A DNA stretch of 38,348 nucleotides from Eubacteriales bacterium (GTDB lineage Bacteria > Bacillota > Clostridia > Peptostreptococcales > Anaerovoracaceae), in NCBI GenBank assembly GCA_028680875.1, contig JAQUJQ010000002.1:1-38348 (forward strand), written 5' to 3'. A program made the translations under genes and the position numbers. Shown here piece after piece: positions 1 to 12,177 of the stretch (the stretch's first letter is position 1; each line of letters starts with the position of its first letter). The notes beneath the pieces were generated by a model, which did no database searches, was not told where the DNA came from, and was given only the letters and a program-made list of their open reading frames with translations.

Positions 1-556
1 TTTCTATGCGCAGCATTTTATCCTCATGGCGAGTCGTAACGGCTTTGAGTCCTCTTTCTCCGTTATAGGCAAGTATCTCTCCTTCATATATCGAAGGGAT
101 CAATAAAGGATGCCCTTTTTTTCCGTGATAGCAGGGCACTATAAATGATTCCGGGTGCTTTTTATGCTCTTGAACAATCCGGTTTATAATCTTTGCAGGG
201 ACAAGGGGGCAATCAACCGGAAGCAGCAGATATGCGGACAAGGGTACTGATGGTTTGGCCATGGCAGCCCTTATACCGGTTTTTACCGATTCGTACATCC
301 CTTCGCAAAAATCTTTATTATAGGCTTCCTCTATCCCTTTTTCTTTCAGGATAGGTTTCAACAATTCTCTTTTATATCCCGTTACAGCTAAAATTTGATT
401 TACTCCCGCCTCTCTGAAAGCATCAGCAATCCTACCTATTGCGGGCACATCTCCCACCTTAAGCAGGGGCTTAAAATCTCCCATTCGAGAAGAATATCCG
501 GCGGAAAGGATCAAAGCACATACAGTAATATCCTGCCTCAGCTTATCGTTCACCAT
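1..556 (-). CDS. MocA/MobA-like molybdenum cofactor nucleotidyltransferase (partial, C-terminus runs off the left edge; DVU_1551-like NTP transferase)
   Basis: Translated by hand from the minus strand: MVNDKLRQDITVCALILSAGYSSRMGDFKPLLKVGDV..., with the LxAGxSSRMG...K NTP-transferase motif and ...LLPVDCPLVP. Overlaps the end of xdhC by 14 nt. Confidence 0.85.
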   Translation of the reverse strand, partial: MVNDKLRQDITVCALILSAGYSSRMGDFKPLLKVGDVPAIGRIADAFREAGVNQILAVTGYKRELLKPILKEKGIEEAYNKDFCEGMYESVKTGIRAAMAKPSVPLSAYLLLPVDCPLVPAKIINRIVQEHKKHPESFIVPCYHGKKGHPLLIPSIYEGEILAYNGERGLKAVTTRHEDKMLRIE

Positions 557-1370
557 GACCTGCCCTTACTTTTATCATCTCAGCCGCAACACTTACGGCG
601 ATTTCTTCAGGAGTCTCGGCGAAAATAGGCAATCCGATAGGAGAATACACTTTGTCTAATTCCTCCTGCGAAAAACCGTCCTCTATTAACCGTTTCTTAG
701 TGTCGGCAACCTTGTTTCTGCTGCCGATCATCCCTATATACGCCACCTTCCTCCTAAGAGACTGCTTCAGCACGGTATAATCGTAGCTGTGGCCTCTTGT
801 CATAATAACTATATAACTATTTTCATCGGTTTTTATGTCCTCATAGGCGTCTTCAAAGCTTTCGATCACTCTAACCCGGTCTGCCTCCGGAAACCGCTCG
901 CTGCTGGCATATTCCGCCCTGTCATCGATCACAGTCGTTGAAAAGCCGATAAACCGTAAAACCGGTTCAAGAGCCTGTCCCACATGACCTGCACCGAAGA
1001 TAAGTACAGTGCTTTTTACACCAAATTCTTCGATAAATGTTTCCGTCTTTGCTGCGTCCACATATTCAACAAAGACATCTGCGTCTCCGCCGCATCGCAT
1101 ATCTAATCCTTGCTGGTCCTCCGGCTTCAGTCTGAACCGATACAGTTTCGATTGTCTGGTTTTAAATGTCTCCAGAGCAATCCGTTCCACTTCGGCTTCA
1201 AGCTTCCCTCCGCCTACGGTACCGTATCTTGTTCCGTTTCCCCGCATAAGAAGACAGGCACCTTTTTTTCTGGGAGTTGAACCATTTGTATCTACCACCT
1301 TTGCTATAACAAAGCTTTCCCCTGTGTCAATCAGGTCCTTTCCGATCTTCAGAATATTATTCTTACTCAT
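543..1370 (-). CDS. xdhC: XdhC/CoxF family Moco-enzyme maturation protein
   Basis: ORF 543..1448; likely start at MSKNNILKIG. Motifs GSTPRKKGACLLM, GTVGGGKLE, MRCGG, and Rossmann FGAGHVGQAL...IDDR; YIGMIGSRNK. Confidence 0.9.
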   Translation of the reverse strand: MSKNNILKIGKDLIDTGESFVIAKVVDTNGSTPRKKGACLLMRGNGTRYGTVGGGKLEAEVERIALETFKTRQSKLYRFRLKPEDQQGLDMRCGGDADVFVEYVDAAKTETFIEEFGVKSTVLIFGAGHVGQALEPVLRFIGFSTTVIDDRAEYASSERFPEADRVRVIESFEDAYEDIKTDENSYIVIMTRGHSYDYTVLKQSLRRKVAYIGMIGSRNKVADTKKRLIEDGFSQEELDKVYSPIGLPIFAETPEEIAVSVAAEMIKVRAGHGER

Positions 1371-1387
1371 AGCTATTTTCTTCCTCC

Positions 1388-2425
1388 TTATTTCACCCAT
1401 CTGGGGAATACCTTGTTTAATCTTTTTAACACACTGCCGCAAGGACATTGTTCAATTATCCACTTAGAAAGATCACCGGTCCGGTATCGAATAAGGGGCA
1501 TTCCTTTCCTAGTCAAGGTAGTAAACACGATCTCACCGCATTCACCCTCCGGTACGACTATCCCGGTCCCGGGATCGATTATTTCAAAGTACAGATCGTT
1601 TTCTCTCGGGTGGTAGCCGACCAGTGTTTCACAGCTTACTGCACCTCCAAGCCCCATTTCAGTCATTCCATAATGTTCGAATACTTTACATCCCCATATT
1701 TCCTCCAGCTCTCTTGCTGTTTCATCGGAAATATAATCGGTACTGAGTAATACGGTCTTAATGCCGGGAAAGCCCGGAGCGTTGCCATGTAACTCCTTCC
1801 AGAATTTTGCGAGACAGACAGCTTCCTGTGGGCTCCCCACAAACGAAGTGATGCTTTCTGTTTCTATGATCTTACAGAGTCTGTTTAAAACTTCTGTGTC
1901 GGTAATATCGGGTAATCCAAAGGGAACCGATCTACAGCCCAGCCGTTTTAAACCGGTATTCAGTAAATCTCCCACCGACCCGGGCCGTTGACAGGGCAGC
2001 AAAATCAGGACTGTATCATTCTCATCGACTAGATTTTTCATACCATGGTGAAAATAATCTATGGTCAATTCCTGGTCTTCTCTTGTGAAGTAAACTCTTT
2101 TACTTTCTCCGGTAGAGCCTGAAGTGTTCAGGGTTACAATACGGCTTATATGATTCGCCGGAACACAAAGCATTGACTTACCGTGTTCCGATAATTCTTT
2201 TGCTGTAGTAAAAGGTAAATTTTCTATTTCATTTATATTTTTTAATTGCTGACCTTTAAAATTCTTTAGCTTATTATTATAAAATCTACTATTTTTGATC
2301 GCATGGGATATTGTTTCATTTAGTTTCTTAAGCTGGAACTGTTCAAGTCTTTCTCTGGTTAAATCCATACAGTCTATAGCATCGATCTTCTCTTTTATCC
2401 AATTGTCCAAAAATAGTCCGCTCAT
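1388..2425 (-). CDS. Short AMP-dependent ligase/synthetase, phenylacetate-CoA ligase-like (DVU_1553-like), lacking most of the C-terminal domain
   Basis: ORF 1388..2506; likely start MSGLFLDNWIKEK overlapping the upstream gene by ATGA. TSGSTGESKRVYF P-loop-like motif, HYGMTEMG, YRTGDLS, CPCGS near the C-terminus. Confidence 0.8.
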   Translation of the reverse strand: MSGLFLDNWIKEKIDAIDCMDLTRERLEQFQLKKLNETISHAIKNSRFYNNKLKNFKGQQLKNINEIENLPFTTAKELSEHGKSMLCVPANHISRIVTLNTSGSTGESKRVYFTREDQELTIDYFHHGMKNLVDENDTVLILLPCQRPGSVGDLLNTGLKRLGCRSVPFGLPDITDTEVLNRLCKIIETESITSFVGSPQEAVCLAKFWKELHGNAPGFPGIKTVLLSTDYISDETARELEEIWGCKVFEHYGMTEMGLGGAVSCETLVGYHPRENDLYFEIIDPGTGIVVPEGECGEIVFTTLTRKGMPLIRYRTGDLSKWIIEQCPCGSVLKRLNKVFPRWVK

Positions 2426-3771
2426 TGATTTTTCTCCCGATGAATGATGTTGTAAGCACAAAACGGAATCAACCTTTTGTCTCTTGTCGCTACATGTACT
2501 CTGCATCTTTCCAATCGCTTCAGATCAAGGTTCCAGGCATCCTGGAATGCCATTGCAGTAATGCTGAAACTGTTGGATTTCAGATTCTGAATATAATCAT
2601 CCCATTCAGAGAAATTATATTCCGTGCTTTCTGCAAGCGGTTTTTTATAGGCCTGCCAGGACCACTTCCGTGCTATATAGTTCCTGGCCCGGATGATGGA
2701 GGTGTCCTTTGAACAAAGACAGGATCTCTTTGATTGATCTGACAGAGAGGTTAAACTTTTATCCGGCCCAACTATAAAATTGCCGTGAAAGGAACACAGA
2801 GGATGGCCCGTCATCAATGGCACAAAGGCTTCCTTTTTGACTTTCCCACCGGTTTGCAGTTCAATGTTCCGAATCAGTTTAGGGATCGTAATCCTGTCAT
2901 CATCCCCCGGCATCTCGGGCATACCGGGAAATCTGCCGAAATAACTTACCGGCTGAAAGTGAATCCCCCGTAGATAAGGTGTTTTTTTTATTGCAAACTC
3001 GATAATCTCCCCTATATGATCTTCGTTTACTTTAGGCACTACAGTAACAACCAAAACTGTTCCAAGCTGTTCGCAGATGCAATGTTCTATTGCCTTTATC
3101 TTTTTATCAAGGAGCCTTTCCCCTCTTGTCTTTAGATAAATATCATCCTTAAGACCGTCAAATTGAAGGAACACAGAGGAAAGCCCGGCCTGCTTCAGAG
3201 TTCTTACATACTCTCTGCTATCTGCCAGCTTCCTGCCGTTTGTATTCAATTGTATGTAGGGGAAGCCCATCTCCCTTCCCATCGCAATGATTTCCGGCAA
3301 ATCTTTTCGTATCGTAGGTTCCCCGCCGGACAATTGGATATTGAATGGGCGATCCGGGCTTTGTTCCAACAGGAATTCATAAATCTCTTTGATCTCTTCT
3401 ATGGTTAATTCTTGACTTTCACAATAGGTTCTGTCAGATATATTCTGATGGGAACTCTGTGCATTTGCAAAGCAAAAAGAGCAATGCTGATTGCACCGAT
3501 TTGTCAATTCGATAAGCACACAACAAGCCTCTTGTTTATGATTTTCACACAAACCGCAGTCATAGGGACAGCCCTCTACAGTTTCTGTCTTTACTCCTTG
3601 AGGCTTGACATTATCAGGTGTAAGGTTCCAATCTTTATAGGATGGTTCTCCTTCCCAAACTAATGTCTTAAATATACCATGCTCTGGGCAGATCTTTCGA
3701 TCATATATTTTATCGCCTTCCTGATATCGTTCTACAGGTACCCTTTTTTTACAAATGGGACATATACTCAT
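2422..3771 (-). CDS. trsS: Radical SAM protein, TrsS-like / Tes-like, with N-terminal and C-terminal Cys motifs
   Basis: CPICKKRV at the N-terminus; CPYDCGLCENH; CNQHCSFC radical SAM CxxxCxxC; LSGGEPT; C-terminal FQDAWNLDLKRLERCRVHVATRDKRLIPFCAYN. Confidence 0.7.
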   Translation of the reverse strand: MSICPICKKRVPVERYQEGDKIYDRKICPEHGIFKTLVWEGEPSYKDWNLTPDNVKPQGVKTETVEGCPYDCGLCENHKQEACCVLIELTNRCNQHCSFCFANAQSSHQNISDRTYCESQELTIEEIKEIYEFLLEQSPDRPFNIQLSGGEPTIRKDLPEIIAMGREMGFPYIQLNTNGRKLADSREYVRTLKQAGLSSVFLQFDGLKDDIYLKTRGERLLDKKIKAIEHCICEQLGTVLVVTVVPKVNEDHIGEIIEFAIKKTPYLRGIHFQPVSYFGRFPGMPEMPGDDDRITIPKLIRNIELQTGGKVKKEAFVPLMTGHPLCSFHGNFIVGPDKSLTSLSDQSKRSCLCSKDTSIIRARNYIARKWSWQAYKKPLAESTEYNFSEWDDYIQNLKSNSFSITAMAFQDAWNLDLKRLERCRVHVATRDKRLIPFCAYNIIHREKNQ

Positions 3772-3772
3772 T

Positions 3773-4168
3773 TTATTTCTCCCGGCGAAACTCTATATCG
3801 TAAGATTCAAACATATCCACCAGCTTTAAATATGTTCCTTCCACGATTTCTTTGCAAAGTACAGCCTTATTCAAAGGATTTCCTTCAAGCAGAATATCGC
3901 ATTCCGTATTTCCAAAAAGCTCCTCAAACCAATCATGCAATTCGTCACACATAGTATCTGCCTGTCTCTTGTCAGCCAAATACAACAAACAGAAGGAGGC
4001 TGACAATGTTCCGCAAGTCTTGCCCCGATGCATACCGTCGCATAAACCTGCCATAGCATCAACTAAATCGATATTCTCTTTACCCAATCCCTCAAGGCCC
4101 ATCTGCATGATCATTTGGCTGCAGCAATAGCCCTTAAACTTTAATTCCATAATCCGAAAGATATCCAT
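3773..4168 (-). CDS. C_GCAxxG_C_C family redox protein (DVU_1555-like)
   Basis: GYCCSQMIMQMGL...MAGLCDGMHRGKTCGTLSASFCLL Cys pattern. Confidence 0.8.
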   Translation of the reverse strand: MDIFRIMELKFKGYCCSQMIMQMGLEGLGKENIDLVDAMAGLCDGMHRGKTCGTLSASFCLLYLADKRQADTMCDELHDWFEELFGNTECDILLEGNPLNKAVLCKEIVEGTYLKLVDMFESYDIEFRREK

Positions 4169-4179
4169 AAATATCCTCC

Positions 4180-4896
4180 TTAAGGTTTTTCCGCTATAAG
4201 GAGAAAATAGCCCGGTTTTTTCTGTTTAATCATCTCTGCAAAATGCAAGGCATCTTTCTCTTCTTTTAATACCGACTGATAAAAATTCTCCATCGATCCA
4301 TAATGCATGATCATTGAAGCCATAAAGCTTTTAAGTTCAGCTGTCTTGTCCTCCCATAATATGATACGAAAGCCAAGCTCCGAAAGTAAATCATTGAGCT
4401 CACTTAAAACGAAAGCTCCGCTAATACAAGTTTTTACCTGCCCGTTATCACCTTCAACATTCTTATTTGCATCCCGCAGATAAAAATCACTTATGATAAG
4501 CTTTCCGCCTTTTTTTAAGACACAATAGGCTTCATGCAAAGCCTCTGTTTTGTTTTCAAATAATGATAAAGAGCATTCCATAAAGACTCCGTCAAATGAA
4601 AAAGAAGGAAATTCAAGCAGCTCTCCATCACCGTATACGATATTCAATTTTGGATTTCTGTCTTTTCCCCTTTTCAACAAAACCTTTGATGAATCAATTC
4701 CTACGGCACTTATATCGAAATTTGTTTCCAAAAATTCCACGGTAGCACCGCAGCCGCAACCTACATCTAAAAGCCTTGCCTTTTTCCCAAACTGACAAAT
4801 CTCCATAGCATGTGCGGTAACAGCAAAGCCTCCGGGTCTTATAGCATTTTCAAACACTTCACTAAAAACAGGGGCTTCAAATACTTTACAGGTCAT
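4180..4896 (-). CDS. Class I SAM-dependent methyltransferase (DVU_1556-like)
   Basis: Motif I LLDVGCGCGATVEFLE, VGIDSSKVLL, YGDGELLEFPSFSFDGVFMECSLSLF, LKKGGKLIISDFYLRD. Confidence 0.85.
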   Translation of the reverse strand: MTCKVFEAPVFSEVFENAIRPGGFAVTAHAMEICQFGKKARLLDVGCGCGATVEFLETNFDISAVGIDSSKVLLKRGKDRNPKLNIVYGDGELLEFPSFSFDGVFMECSLSLFENKTEALHEAYCVLKKGGKLIISDFYLRDANKNVEGDNGQVKTCISGAFVLSELNDLLSELGFRIILWEDKTAELKSFMASMIMHYGSMENFYQSVLKEEKDALHFAEMIKQKKPGYFLLIAEKP

Positions 4897-5123: not shown

Positions 5124-7403
5124 TTAAAGCCTATATTTACGATGAGCGTTTTCTTCAATTTTCTTATTTATTTCAAGCCTGTGACTATATGCTTTATAGA
5201 TTGTATACACATCCCCTTCGATACTGTATTCAACCCAATAAGTAATCACTCCGGGCTGAAACTTGGCGGTATAATGGTTGTTATTGGGGTTCCATATCTT
5301 GCTGCCTGTATCTTCAGCATGGTAAATCACCTTTTTAATGTCCGAAACCAATATCAGTCTGTCATCCATTATGCGCTCGATCTCATCTGTAAGCTTTATA
5401 TTAATATCTTCATAGGGCTCTTTTTCCCGTTCCATTTCCTCACCCCATATCTCCTTCAATAGTTTCCTTTTAAGCATAATCCTGTTTTCATGCCTTTTGC
5501 TATATGAAATTATATATTTATGATCCCGCTCTCCGCTTTTATAGGGCTCATCATAGATTAAATCGAGGATATGCCTGCTCGATTTTGCCTCTTTAGTAAA
5601 CCTTTCTTTACACATCGCACAATATACCACAAAATCCTTGTCGCTTTCCATCGCCCTTGTATCGGTCATTTCCTTGGCCAAAGAGGTATTTGTAAACGAA
5701 ACCAAACCACCGAAGCTGCAACATTTTGTCATATCTCTGCTGTATTTCATTTCCTCGATCCGGTATCCCTTCTTTTTCAAAAGACTACGGACCGCTTTAT
5801 GAACATTGGGATCATGTCTCGCTGTACACGCATCGTGTACAGTAATGACAGGATGAGTATTTGCGATGGGCCCCTGAATTTCGGCCCCACACGAATCGTA
5901 TATTTCCCAAAGAGACTCAATTTGAATTCCCTCGATCTGCTCTGAAAACATCTTGGTACATGTGGCACAAGCAGTTATAACAATTGGTTTGCCTGCTTTT
6001 TCCCAATTATCTTTCACCTCTTCGGATGTCTGGTTAAATAAATCAACCCTTCCCGACCAAGCCGCCGGCGCACCACAGCACCCCAGATATAAACCTACAC
6101 CACCCCTTAAATTCTCAGTTAAAAACTGATAGGCTTTCAGCACATGGGTAGGTGCCAAGGCGCCCAGTTGGCATCCGGGGAAAAAGATATACTTGCTTTC
6201 TTCCATACCTACCTGATGACGTAACAGTTTAAAATAGTTACTGTTAGCGAATAACATATCATTGACGGGAAAATCATGGATTGCTTCCGGCATATGATTT
6301 TTTTCAGCTAAACCGACCTTGCCCGACATGCATACATCAGCCATATTTAGTCCATTAGGACAGATTTCTCCGCAAAGGCCACATAAGGTACAGGAGTTTA
6401 CCATATTTTTGCTTTTACGGATTCCCATCATAATATTTACATTGTTGGCAATCTCTCTGACATATTTTTTGGGATAGCTGCCTTCAGTTTCTAAGAACTT
6501 GCATTGCTTGACACATTCCATACACTCACATTGAATGCATCTTTCAGCTTCCTTTATTGCTTCTGCTTCGGTGAGACCATCCAACAACCTGGGAGTGACG
6601 GTAGTGGCACGAGGCTCAATTTGACCAATATTTACATACAATTCTGTCTTGTATGCAACTTCATTTTCTCTTCCTTCTGTCAGCGATACACCCTTTATCT
6701 GTCTGTCCAAGGAGATGGCCGAAGAACGGCCGTCACAAATTTTCTGTATAATACTGTCTTCACCGTAACCTGATTCAATAAGTAAATCTTTTGATCTGGA
6801 ATCATAAATACCGTCAAATATTTCTCCCAACTGTTCTTCTATGTCAGTAATCTGACAGTTGCATCTTAGTTGAATATCTGTGTCATCCAGTAATTTGAAA
6901 TCAGCATCCATCAGCTCCTCTGATAATAATCCGTCCTTTACCCTGCTTCGGATTCTGCCTCCCAATTTACCTTCTTTTTCAAATACTGTAACCTGATACC
7001 CTTTTTCATATAAAAACAATGCAGCAGTCAGTCCGGAAAGACCGCCCCCTACAATAGCTATTTTCTTATTTGTTTTTTTAATCGGTTTAATCTTTTTCTT
7101 CTTTAGTTCCCCAAATTCAATACATGCTCTTTCTAACTTAGAAATCAGGATAGAACCGCCTATTTCCTCTCTTTTACATACCAATTGACAGGGATGATCA
7201 CAAATCCTGCTTACGATTCTCGGGAAAGGGATATTTTTTTGAAAACAATTTACTGCACCTGTAAAATCATCTTTTTCTATATATCGGATCATGGTCTTTA
7301 CATCAACATGCATCGGACATGATGTAATACAAGCCGGGGCATAATTCTGTGTACATTTATCCTCATACTCCCTGATTTCAGGCCTCTTCATTTTTACCAC
7401 CAT
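5124..7403 (-). CDS. FAD-dependent pyridine nucleotide-disulfide oxidoreductase / dicluster Fe-S protein with CCG (heterodisulfide reductase-like) domains
   Basis: GltD-type N-terminal Cys region (CTQNYAPACITSCPMHVDV); FAD site KKIAIVGGGLSGLTAALFLYEKGYQVTVFEKEGKLGGR; CIQCECMECVKQC and CTLCGLCGEICPNG clusters; FPGCQLGA, LGCCGAPAAWSGR and KCCSFGGLVSF CCG motifs. Confidence 0.8.
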   Translation of the reverse strand: MVVKMKRPEIREYEDKCTQNYAPACITSCPMHVDVKTMIRYIEKDDFTGAVNCFQKNIPFPRIVSRICDHPCQLVCKREEIGGSILISKLERACIEFGELKKKKIKPIKKTNKKIAIVGGGLSGLTAALFLYEKGYQVTVFEKEGKLGGRIRSRVKDGLLSEELMDADFKLLDDTDIQLRCNCQITDIEEQLGEIFDGIYDSRSKDLLIESGYGEDSIIQKICDGRSSAISLDRQIKGVSLTEGRENEVAYKTELYVNIGQIEPRATTVTPRLLDGLTEAEAIKEAERCIQCECMECVKQCKFLETEGSYPKKYVREIANNVNIMMGIRKSKNMVNSCTLCGLCGEICPNGLNMADVCMSGKVGLAEKNHMPEAIHDFPVNDMLFANSNYFKLLRHQVGMEESKYIFFPGCQLGALAPTHVLKAYQFLTENLRGGVGLYLGCCGAPAAWSGRVDLFNQTSEEVKDNWEKAGKPIVITACATCTKMFSEQIEGIQIESLWEIYDSCGAEIQGPIANTHPVITVHDACTARHDPNVHKAVRSLLKKKGYRIEEMKYSRDMTKCCSFGGLVSFTNTSLAKEMTDTRAMESDKDFVVYCAMCKERFTKEAKSSRHILDLIYDEPYKSGERDHKYIISYSKRHENRIMLKRKLLKEIWGEEMEREKEPYEDINIKLTDEIERIMDDRLILVSDIKKVIYHAEDTGSKIWNPNNNHYTAKFQPGVITYWVEYSIEGDVYTIYKAYSHRLEINKKIEENAHRKYRL

Positions 7404-10251: not shown

Positions 10252-10383
10252 TGAGACCCTCCTTAAAAATCAATTATGACTTAGGGATATCTACTTAATA
10301 TTGTGATTTCACTTTTTTAGATGTACTATAGAATAATCCTATCAGCCTCCTTTTTTATCAATAGCTGTAAAGTAAATTAAAAT

Positions 10384-10405
10384 CCCTGTCCGTAAACGGG
10401 CAGGG
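10384..10405 (-). terminator. Putative intrinsic terminator / expression platform downstream of the Moco riboswitch
   Basis: Minus-strand RNA CCCUG-C-CCG-UUUA-CGG-A-CAGGG followed by AUUUUAAUUU. Confidence 0.6.
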
Positions 10406-10437
10406 AAAACAGTACACGAAAAATGCATTTTGTATAA

Positions 10438-10539
10438 TGTCTCCTTTCCAAATACGGGAGGCTCAGATGTTTCCATCTAAACCCATCGTCTCTGACTTCA
10501 TAGCGTAAAACTGCCACAGAAGATCAGAGATCGGAGATA
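10438..10539 (-). promoter_or_regulatory. Molybdenum cofactor (Moco) riboswitch
   Basis: Minus strand: TATCTCCGATCTCTGATCTTCTGTGGCAGTTTTACGCTATGAAGTCAGAGACGATGGGTTTAGATGGAAACATCTGAGCCTCCCGTATTTGGAAAGGAGACA. The 3' conserved block CCTCCCGTAT(T/C)TGGAAAGG closely resembles the E. coli moaA Moco element. P1 CTCC/GGAG, TCTCTGA/TCAGAGA stem, and an AGAT-GGAAAC-ATCT hairpin. Lies directly upstream of a Mo-enzyme gene. Confidence 0.9.
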
Positions 10540-10562
10540 ATTATTTAATTTTTACTGATTTC

Positions 10563-10591
10563 AGTTTAGCAGGGATTAGTAATGGTGTCAA
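10563..10591 (-). promoter_or_regulatory. SigmaA-type promoter for the riboswitch-mop transcript
   Basis: Minus strand TTGACA-17 nt-TAAACT immediately upstream of the riboswitch. Confidence 0.75.
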
Positions 10592-11343: not shown

Positions 11344-12177
11344 TTAATCTATATAAATGGTGCCGGCAGCTGTAATATCAATGTCGCCGGCCAGTTTAGC
11401 AGCAATGATACCGCCATTCCAATCAATACTTGCAAATAACTCTCCTCCCGGTTGATGAATTTGCATATTTTTGATGGTTCTTCCCTCCCTTTGAGCAAGG
11501 GCAGATACCAGAGCTACCGTTCCGGATCCGCAGCTCTTCTCCCAGGTCAAAGAACCTACCGCTCTTACATAAACCACCGGTGTCATTTGTGATGTAGCAC
11601 TGTTATAAAATAGTATGCCAAAACAATCCGTATCCAGTTGTTCCTTTTTTAAAAAATCCTTTACAATATGAACATAGGCATCTGCCGCAGTTTTGTTCCA
11701 GAGAATCACATGAAGGATACCCTCATAGACTACAATGCTATAATCACCCAATTGATCATTTCTGCCATGATAGATATCTGAAGGAAGCGGCATTTCGATT
11801 GCAACGTTGCATCTATAGCCGGGCTGTTGATTTTGCACTACGGCGGTTAAGATTCCCCTGTAACCGGACATTTCTATAATTACTTCCTTTTTGTCCCCCT
11901 CAAAATTATGAATTTTTCCACTCTCCATTCCGCCCATGGCAATCCAGGCGGCAAGGCTTCTGGATGCATTGCCACAAAATTCTCCGCCCATCATCTGGAG
12001 ACGGGCTAAAGCTTTGGGGTGTTCCGCCTTTTCCAGAAAACCTACCTGCTCGGCGCAAAGATAAGTATCAGTCATAATTTTAGCGGCGATATCCGAGTAT
12101 CTTTTTCTGGGTAAAGGGTCTATAATCAGTATGGTTGTATTCCCACTGGGATTATACTTTACAAATTTGAGTTCCAT
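11344..12177 (-). CDS. DapF-fold amino-acid epimerase/racemase (CntK histidine racemase-like)
   Basis: Paired catalytic Cys motifs MMGGEFCGNASRS and KSCGSGTVALVSAL; start MELKFVKYNPSGN. Confidence 0.7.
   Translation of the reverse strand: MELKFVKYNPSGNTTILIIDPLPRKRYSDIAAKIMTDTYLCAEQVGFLEKAEHPKALARLQMMGGEFCGNASRSLAAWIAMGGMESGKIHNFEGDKKEVIIEMSGYRGILTAVVQNQQPGYRCNVAIEMPLPSDIYHGRNDQLGDYSIVVYEGILHVILWNKTAADAYVHIVKDFLKKEQLDTDCFGILFYNSATSQMTPVVYVRAVGSLTWEKSCGSGTVALVSALAQREGRTIKNMQIHQPGGELFASIDWNGGIIAAKLAGDIDITAAGTIYID

Follow-up and report, generated by a model that had tools for sequence, protein, structure and literature searches.

A P3-less Moco/W riboswitch before a molybdenum aldehyde oxidoreductase operon: a candidate tungsten-cofactor OFF switch with ON-layout relatives at tungsten enzymes

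The leader of mop, the gene of a molybdopterin-dependent aldehyde oxidoreductase in the window (the whole stretch of DNA that was analysed, 38,348 nt), carries an element that is almost certainly a real RF01055 riboswitch and belongs to the subtype lacking the P3 stem. We lean, by somewhat more than an even chance, towards a tungsten-cofactor-type OFF switch that serves isozyme substitution at mop. Computation directly shows the aptamer, its lack of P3, a pair of competing folds, similar switches in other genomes and the opposite ON layout at tungsten enzymes.

The promoter, the RF01055 aptamer, the terminator-like hairpin and mop with its usual operon form one array on the minus strand, with the following features:

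10591-10563, minus: sigma-70 type promoter, TTGACA (10591-10586), 17 nt, TAAACT (10568-10563), 10/12 matches in a consensus scan
10548..10425, minus: RF01055 Moco/W riboswitch aptamer, P3-less subtype (77.5 bits, E 2.9e-17; P3 model columns deleted)
10531..10536, minus: CTCCGA, P1 5' strand (CTCC) and junction (cmscan structure line)
10489..10530, minus: P2 with tetraloop-receptor-like bulge, CTGTGGC 10519-10513 / GCTATGAA 10504-10497 (cmscan; receptor motif read from sequence)
10485..10488, minus: CGAT, all that separates P2 from P4, at the place of P3 (cmscan)
10459..10484, minus: P4 hairpin with GAAA tetraloop (cmscan)
10438..10444, minus: GGAGACA, P1 3' strand, common to the antiterminator (alternative folds)
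10404..10411, minus: TGTTTTCC, antiterminator 3' side, overlapping the terminator 5' arm (alternative folds)
10374..10405, minus: intrinsic-terminator-like hairpin (10405-10384) and interrupted U tract (10383-10374), from folding of the stretch (-14.2 kcal/mol)
10264-10258, minus: ribosome-binding site of mop
10251-7504, minus: mop, molybdopterin-dependent aldehyde oxidoreductase (NF045668, 1510 bits; PDB 1dgj and 1sij, full length)
5124..7403, minus: pyridine nucleotide-disulfide oxidoreductase/dicluster-binding protein (NF045663, 896.9 bits)
4180..4896, minus: DVU_1556 family methyltransferase (NF045667, 222 bits)
3773..4168, minus: DVU_1555 family C-GCAxxG-C-C protein (NF045669, 107.4 bits)
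2422..3771, minus: radical SAM (seleno)protein, TrsS family (NF045646, 559.1 bits)
1388..2506, minus: DVU_1553 family AMP-dependent CoA ligase (NF045666, 441.2 bits)
543..1448, minus: XdhC-type maturation factor (TIGR02964, 164.4 bits, above cut-off; NF045664, 325.7 bits, just below the cut-off of 350)

The promoter TTGACA-17-TAAACT (10591..10563), recognised in the initial annotation, is present and has a TG upstream; promoter-like sites in the 421-nt region number 7, versus 1.6 expected from shuffles. The mop product belongs to the MOP aldehyde oxidoreductases, scoring well above the cut-off of the NF045668 equivalog (1510 versus 1100 bits) and matching the solved MOP 1dgj over residues 10-912 with 1181.5 bits. 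The genes 3' of mop on the same strand represent families typical of mop clusters (DVU_1556, DVU_1555, TrsS, DVU_1553 and XdhC types), in agreement with the earlier claim that the element controls a Moco-using enzyme and its accessory operon. The aptamer lies 173 nt ahead of the mop start, within the leader of a gene that is related to Mo/W. Further upstream, a gene at 11344-12177 on the minus strand, with a remote match to histidine racemases of the CntK/HisR kind (156-159 bits, below both cut-offs), lies upstream of a DsbD-like gene, which in turn precedes the mop promoter.

A cmscan of the whole 38-kb window against all Rfam models accepted a single match, RF01055 at 10548..10425, with 77.5 bits (gathering cut-off 36 bits) and an E-value of 2.9e-17. 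A chance match was rejected on this score and on its being the only Rfam match in the 38 kb, and matches to SNORA63, mir-17 and ncS16 were rejected as lying far below cut-off. The initial annotation, which had proposed such a covariance-model scan, described a Moco element nearly identical in its 3' core to that of E. coli moaA. The near-identity stands (CCTCCCGTATTTGGAAAGG in the mop leader versus CCTCCCGTATCTGGAAAGG in moaA), as does the assignment to the Moco/W class, but the simple Moco type does not, the RNA being without P3, the published mark of tungsten-cofactor RNAs (PMC2408646). P1, P2, P4 and P5 are all present around the conserved core CUCCGA ... CCUCCC ... GGAAAGGAG in the cmscan alignment and in an alignment of 21 homologous leaders, while four nucleotides (CGAU) link P2 to P4 where P3 would stand; a P3 hidden as an insertion was rejected on the length of this linker. 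The GNRA hairpin GGAAAC (10474..10469), formerly taken to be P3-like, is P4. The E. coli moaA RNA, a member of the same family, has a full P3 and a published translational platform in P1, whereas the platform of the mop leader is a terminator.

In several mop-associated aptamers, from relatives of the window and from one Spirochaetales genome, CUGUGG..CUAUG (10497-10519 in the window) replaces the canonical tetraloop receptor CCUAAG..UAUGG. Judging from sequence, this shared variant perhaps reflects a joint transfer of switch and mop.

Regulski et al. (2008, PMC2408646) reported that 58 of 176 RNAs lacked P3 and that 17 of the 19 organisms with P3-less RNAs had tungsten-metabolism genes, and proposed that these RNAs sense the tungsten cofactor (Tuco). 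In that paper nearly all P3-less RNAs went with pterin synthesis or tungsten genes; the exceptions named were sulphite-oxidase-like genes of S. wolfei, for which repression by Tuco was raised as one possibility (PMC2408646). The published targets of P3-less RNAs, as far as they are openly accessible, do not include mop. The mop switch shares with the Tuco subtype the aptamer core, the missing P3, the GAAA tetraloop, the terminator platform (present in some members) and a host with tungsten genes, and differs in that it controls a molybdenum enzyme of the xanthine oxidase family. Its ligand is probably the tungsten cofactor. Against the tungsten reading, P3 and metal are linked by correlation: the E. 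coli RNA no longer regulated when its P3 was deleted, and its specificity was not switched (PMC2408646). This also favours the main rival, a molybdenum-cofactor feedback switch in line with the initial annotation, as do the family and conserved core common to the mop element and the E. coli Moco RNA: the P3-less RNA would still bind Moco, or both metals, and repress mop as feedback or general cofactor economy. We give this alternative a minor, though appreciable, probability.

The window's own genome carries a second switch of the subtype:

L003:862-982 (contig C244), minus: P3-less switch, flanked by AOR genes and a tupA-like gene, whose OFF-layout terminator is clean

The tupA-like gene, cut by the contig end, reaches 207 bits to NF041772 (below the cut-off of 400); together with three AOR matches it gives this genome the tungsten genes associated with the P3-less subtype. 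An ON switch was sought upstream of the C19 AOR and none was found; the other AOR cluster runs off the contig at its 5' end. At a contig edge lies part of a moaA gene, which scores just below its cut-off (273.7 versus 284), and no modB reaches the cut-off in this assembly, which is 86.6% complete.

The hairpin that the initial annotation had placed before mop is CCCTGCCCG-TTTA-CGGACAGGG in DNA, followed by ATTTTAATTT, and CCCUGCCCG-UUUA-CGGACAGGG in RNA (10405-10384); it has 8 pairs and one C.A mismatch, and the folding energy of the 35-nt terminator stretch is -14.2 kcal/mol. A strict terminator scan of the mop leader reported nothing, since the stem is mismatched and the T tract interrupted; a mismatch-tolerant search and folding recovered the hairpin. 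The P1 3' strand GGAGACA (10444-10438) has two possible partners, CUCC (10536-10533), with which it closes the aptamer, and UGUUUUCC (10411-10404), a stretch overlapping the 5' arm of the terminator. The global folds are near balance at -59.5 kcal/mol (P1 and terminator) versus -57.1 kcal/mol (antiterminator). A ligand that stabilises P1 would favour termination, which points to an OFF switch; the transcriptional attenuation suggested earlier is in line with these folds, and the sign, which had been left unnamed, is supplied by the anatomy. The terminator downstream of the aptamer and the antiterminator built on the P1 3' strand constitute the anatomy of an attenuator, from which the mop leader is predicted, with high confidence, to be a transcription-attenuating OFF riboswitch. 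Compared with dinucleotide shuffles, the antiterminator pairing of the window alone is no better than chance (p 0.15); over 14 terminator-bearing leaders (13 of mop and one of a mop-like fragment) the combined p is 2.8e-4, a guide figure, the leaders being related.

The imperfect terminator, together with a second, weak promoter-like site 3' of it (10361-10333, 9/12 matches), would suit a relic, either without function or read through constitutively, or an element that transcription from a promoter 3' of the terminator bypasses; since the core is fully conserved (77.5 bits), the alternative folds are balanced and mop has this layout in many genomes, we consider this very improbable.

In the mechanism that we propose, GGAGACA would, without ligand, pair with UGUUUUCC and block the terminator, so that mop and its operon would be transcribed; with ligand bound, P1 would close, the hairpin 10405-10384 would form and transcription would stop. 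When the tungsten cofactor is abundant, tungsten aldehyde oxidoreductases would take over, and mop and tungstate uptake would be off. With a molybdenum enzyme as the product of mop, the switch would serve isozyme substitution. The ligand, the sign in vivo and this physiological reason are what we infer from the above.

RF01055 was sought in 76 genomes reached via mop loci, the window's own genome and 60 relatives, and the 152 aptamers extracted were classed by P3 and by first downstream gene; P3 was called automatically, with about 20 junctions settled by reading and 4 left without a call. In this main set, 17 full-length mop genes and one mop-like fragment were the first gene behind a switch, and every one of their aptamers was P3-less; the hosts belong to Bacillota, Spirochaetales, Chloroflexi/Anaerolineae and Desulfobacterota-type genomes. 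When 196 genomes of the class were newly drawn, two more switch-bearing mop genes appeared, P3-less in 2/2, so that in the main set and the new draw together a P3-less aptamer stands at 19/19 full-length mop genes directly behind a switch, in several phyla. Besides that of the window, eight switch-bearing mop proteins were checked, and 8/8 exceeded the equivalog cut-off. Fisher's test on P3 class, mop versus the rest, gave p 0.013, for counts that are not phylogenetically independent. The leaders of mop in the main set (n=17) had an OFF layout in 13 cases, no clear terminator in 4 and an ON layout in 0. Most mop genes elsewhere have no switch, 31/33 genomes with mop, mostly deltaproteobacterial, being without an RF01055 match.

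A Thermodesulfobacteriota genome has two P3-less aptamers in tandem directly 5' of mop, with no clear terminator (L176:2501-2907, minus strand). In Anaerovorax odorimutans (L090:1501-1625, plus strand), an intact P3-less switch of OFF layout precedes an ORF of 147 aa, similar to no more than a part of MOP and, from its sequence, a possible mop remnant.

The other target genes bear on whether P3 goes with the metal. The P3-less aptamer was found wherever tupA (20/20) or AOR (8/8) was the first gene, and modB-type permeases were preceded by P3+ aptamers in 9/10 cases. When three of these permeases were checked, one, behind a P3+ aptamer, was a true ModB and two were TupB-like, one per aptamer type; moaA and moeA likewise occur with both types. 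Such an imperfect split, with TupB-like permeases, moaA and moeA on both sides, is what a P3-less Moco sensor might leave. Against it, the transporters split well by metal, tupA being P3-less throughout and modB-type permeases mostly P3+, and in the three genomes that hold both aptamer types (G001, G002 and G110) mop stands behind the P3-less one. Moco sensing would also leave unexplained the ON-layout P3-less switches on tungsten enzymes and the switches on metal-free dehydrogenases, both described below.

Several further loci were observed in the survey. Related secreted proteins, of which the one checked is an S-layer homology protein, lie behind P3-less switches in G110, G121 and G136 (L118, L132, L232, L233 and L237). 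P3+ aptamers precede FecCD-type transporter permeases at L119, L099 and L185 (one checked), perhaps molybdate importers of siderophore-transporter type. Three loci run against the scheme: a P3+ aptamer before a TupB-like permease (L143), an AOR of C. ljungdahlii 504 nt behind an OFF-type terminator (L108) and a Spirochaetales tupA with a possible ON fold (L199). The C. ljungdahlii element is possibly a relic; an element resembling it in C. ragsdalei precedes an ABC-transporter-like gene. The AOR leaders L113, L115, L116 and L117 have no terminator, so no sign can be read from them, and L249 is ambiguous.

NAD(P)-type aldehyde dehydrogenases, which need neither molybdenum nor tungsten, stand behind five P3-less aptamers at four loci; one was checked (PF00171, TIGR01236), and the others cluster with it. 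The platform is readable for 3/5 of these switches, all OFF and all in Ca. Formimonas, and in Ca. Formimonas warabiya a single OFF-layout switch heads the genes ALDH-ALDH-mop on one strand. B12 riboswitches control B12-independent isozymes such as MetE. By analogy with these, a cofactor sensor on a cofactor-free dehydrogenase would make sense as isozyme substitution. The mop switch would likewise be a cofactor-sensing OFF switch on an isozyme that does not need that cofactor, and differs from the B12 case in RNA class and in that the mop and AOR isozymes differ by metal.

A diverged P3-less subclass has the opposite layout. In its members the P4 loop is GNRA but not GAAA, and P5 is changed from CC/GG to GC/GC in the alignment. 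The 5' arm of the terminator is the 3' strand of the aptamer's own P5/P1; ligand should therefore prevent termination (ON). Seven members came from the survey, four from a search of relatives with the subclass's own covariance model and two from the class draw. The four found with that model, all leaders of [4Fe-4S]+AOR operons with ON-layout terminators (L258:1501-1613, minus; L259:1501-1612, minus; L260:1501-1612, plus; L261:1501-1613, plus), were not reported by the RF01055 search: two lie below the Rfam gathering cut-off and two have no RF01055 match at E up to 1, and the public Rfam model seems to miss RNAs of this type. The layout is ON in 13/13 members (in L255 from the fold and by reading), and the gene behind is AOR or [4Fe-4S]+AOR in 12/13 and FdhA in 1/13. 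Six genomes (G004, G005, G078, G093, G100 and G110) combine an OFF-layout mop with an ON-layout AOR; G232 and G042 also have both, but the mop platform is less clear there. Already in 2008, four RNAs were noted whose loop is GCAA and which lack the receptor (PMC2408646); they may be members of this ON subclass.

The opposite signs also bear on the idea that MOP itself carries tungsten, a tungsten-type switch then serving a tungsten enzyme. The consistent association of mop with P3-less aptamers would fit, as would the own genome, with a tupA-like gene and no modB above cut-off in an assembly 86.6% complete. We nevertheless judge it improbable: the tungsten enzymes of the surveyed genomes have ON layouts and mop OFF, MOP is homologous over its full length to solved molybdenum MOPs, the metal-free dehydrogenases have the same switch type, and among molybdoenzymes only some members of the DMSO reductase family are known to work with tungsten (PMC11980592). 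Sign and enzyme family together thus make tungsten in MOP less likely.

A further possibility is that P3 sorts cofactors by nucleotide (none in bare pterin, or a cytosine or guanine dinucleotide) and not by metal. In its favour, AOR contains bis-pterin tungsten, MOP a cytosine dinucleotide and other enzymes a guanine dinucleotide. That deletion of P3 alone left specificity unchanged (PMC2408646) would also agree. However, mop, AOR and FdhA use three different forms and are all P3-less, and the transporters, which have no cofactor form at all, split too, which leaves this idea with only a slight probability.

The isozyme swap appears to be the best account of all the signs together. The weak antiterminator statistic of the window (p 0.15), the mismatched terminator with its interrupted U tract and the mostly switchless mop genes elsewhere count against it, as do the lack of an ON switch upstream of the own genome's C19 AOR and the absence of mop from the openly accessible published targets of P3-less RNAs. 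Extended to a regulon of both signs, with mop, metal-free aldehyde dehydrogenases and tungstate uptake switched OFF and, via the diverged aptamer, tungsten AOR and formate dehydrogenase switched ON, the proposal is in our view evenly poised. A protein may offer a parallel: TaoR is reported (Rajeev et al. 2019) to activate aor and repress tupABC when tungsten is present, so that its signs on aor and tupABC would be those proposed here for an RNA. TaoR is named as the regulator of the tungsten aldehyde oxidoreductase of Desulfovibrio vulgaris in PMC11980592.

The riboswitch class, its P3-less subtype, the terminator platforms and the association with cofactor-using enzymes were already known, and repression of a molybdenum enzyme by a Tuco switch had been raised as a possibility for S. 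wolfei (PMC2408646). In searches of the openly accessible literature, to which few subscription papers and no supplementary tables (nor the 2008 alignment) belong, no report turned up of a link between mop and P3-less RNAs, of opposite layouts or of an ON subclass. To the extent that this could be checked, it is new that P3-less aptamers are systematically linked to mop, that molybdenum and tungsten aldehyde oxidoreductases have opposite layouts and that there is a diverged ON subclass.

Since 2008, the equation of P3-less RNAs with tungsten-cofactor sensing has rested on gene association. A tungsten-type OFF switch on a molybdenum enzyme and ON switches on tungsten enzymes in the same genomes make this claim directly testable: if it is true, tungstate should lower a mop-type reporter and raise an AOR-type one, while a moa knockout removes molybdenum and tungsten cofactor alike and therefore cannot tell these ligands apart. 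Bacteria would then swap the metal isozymes of one reaction by riboswitch, in a metal counterpart of isozyme control by B12 riboswitches, and the switches would help to predict which aldehyde oxidoreductase a bacterium uses at a given metal supply.
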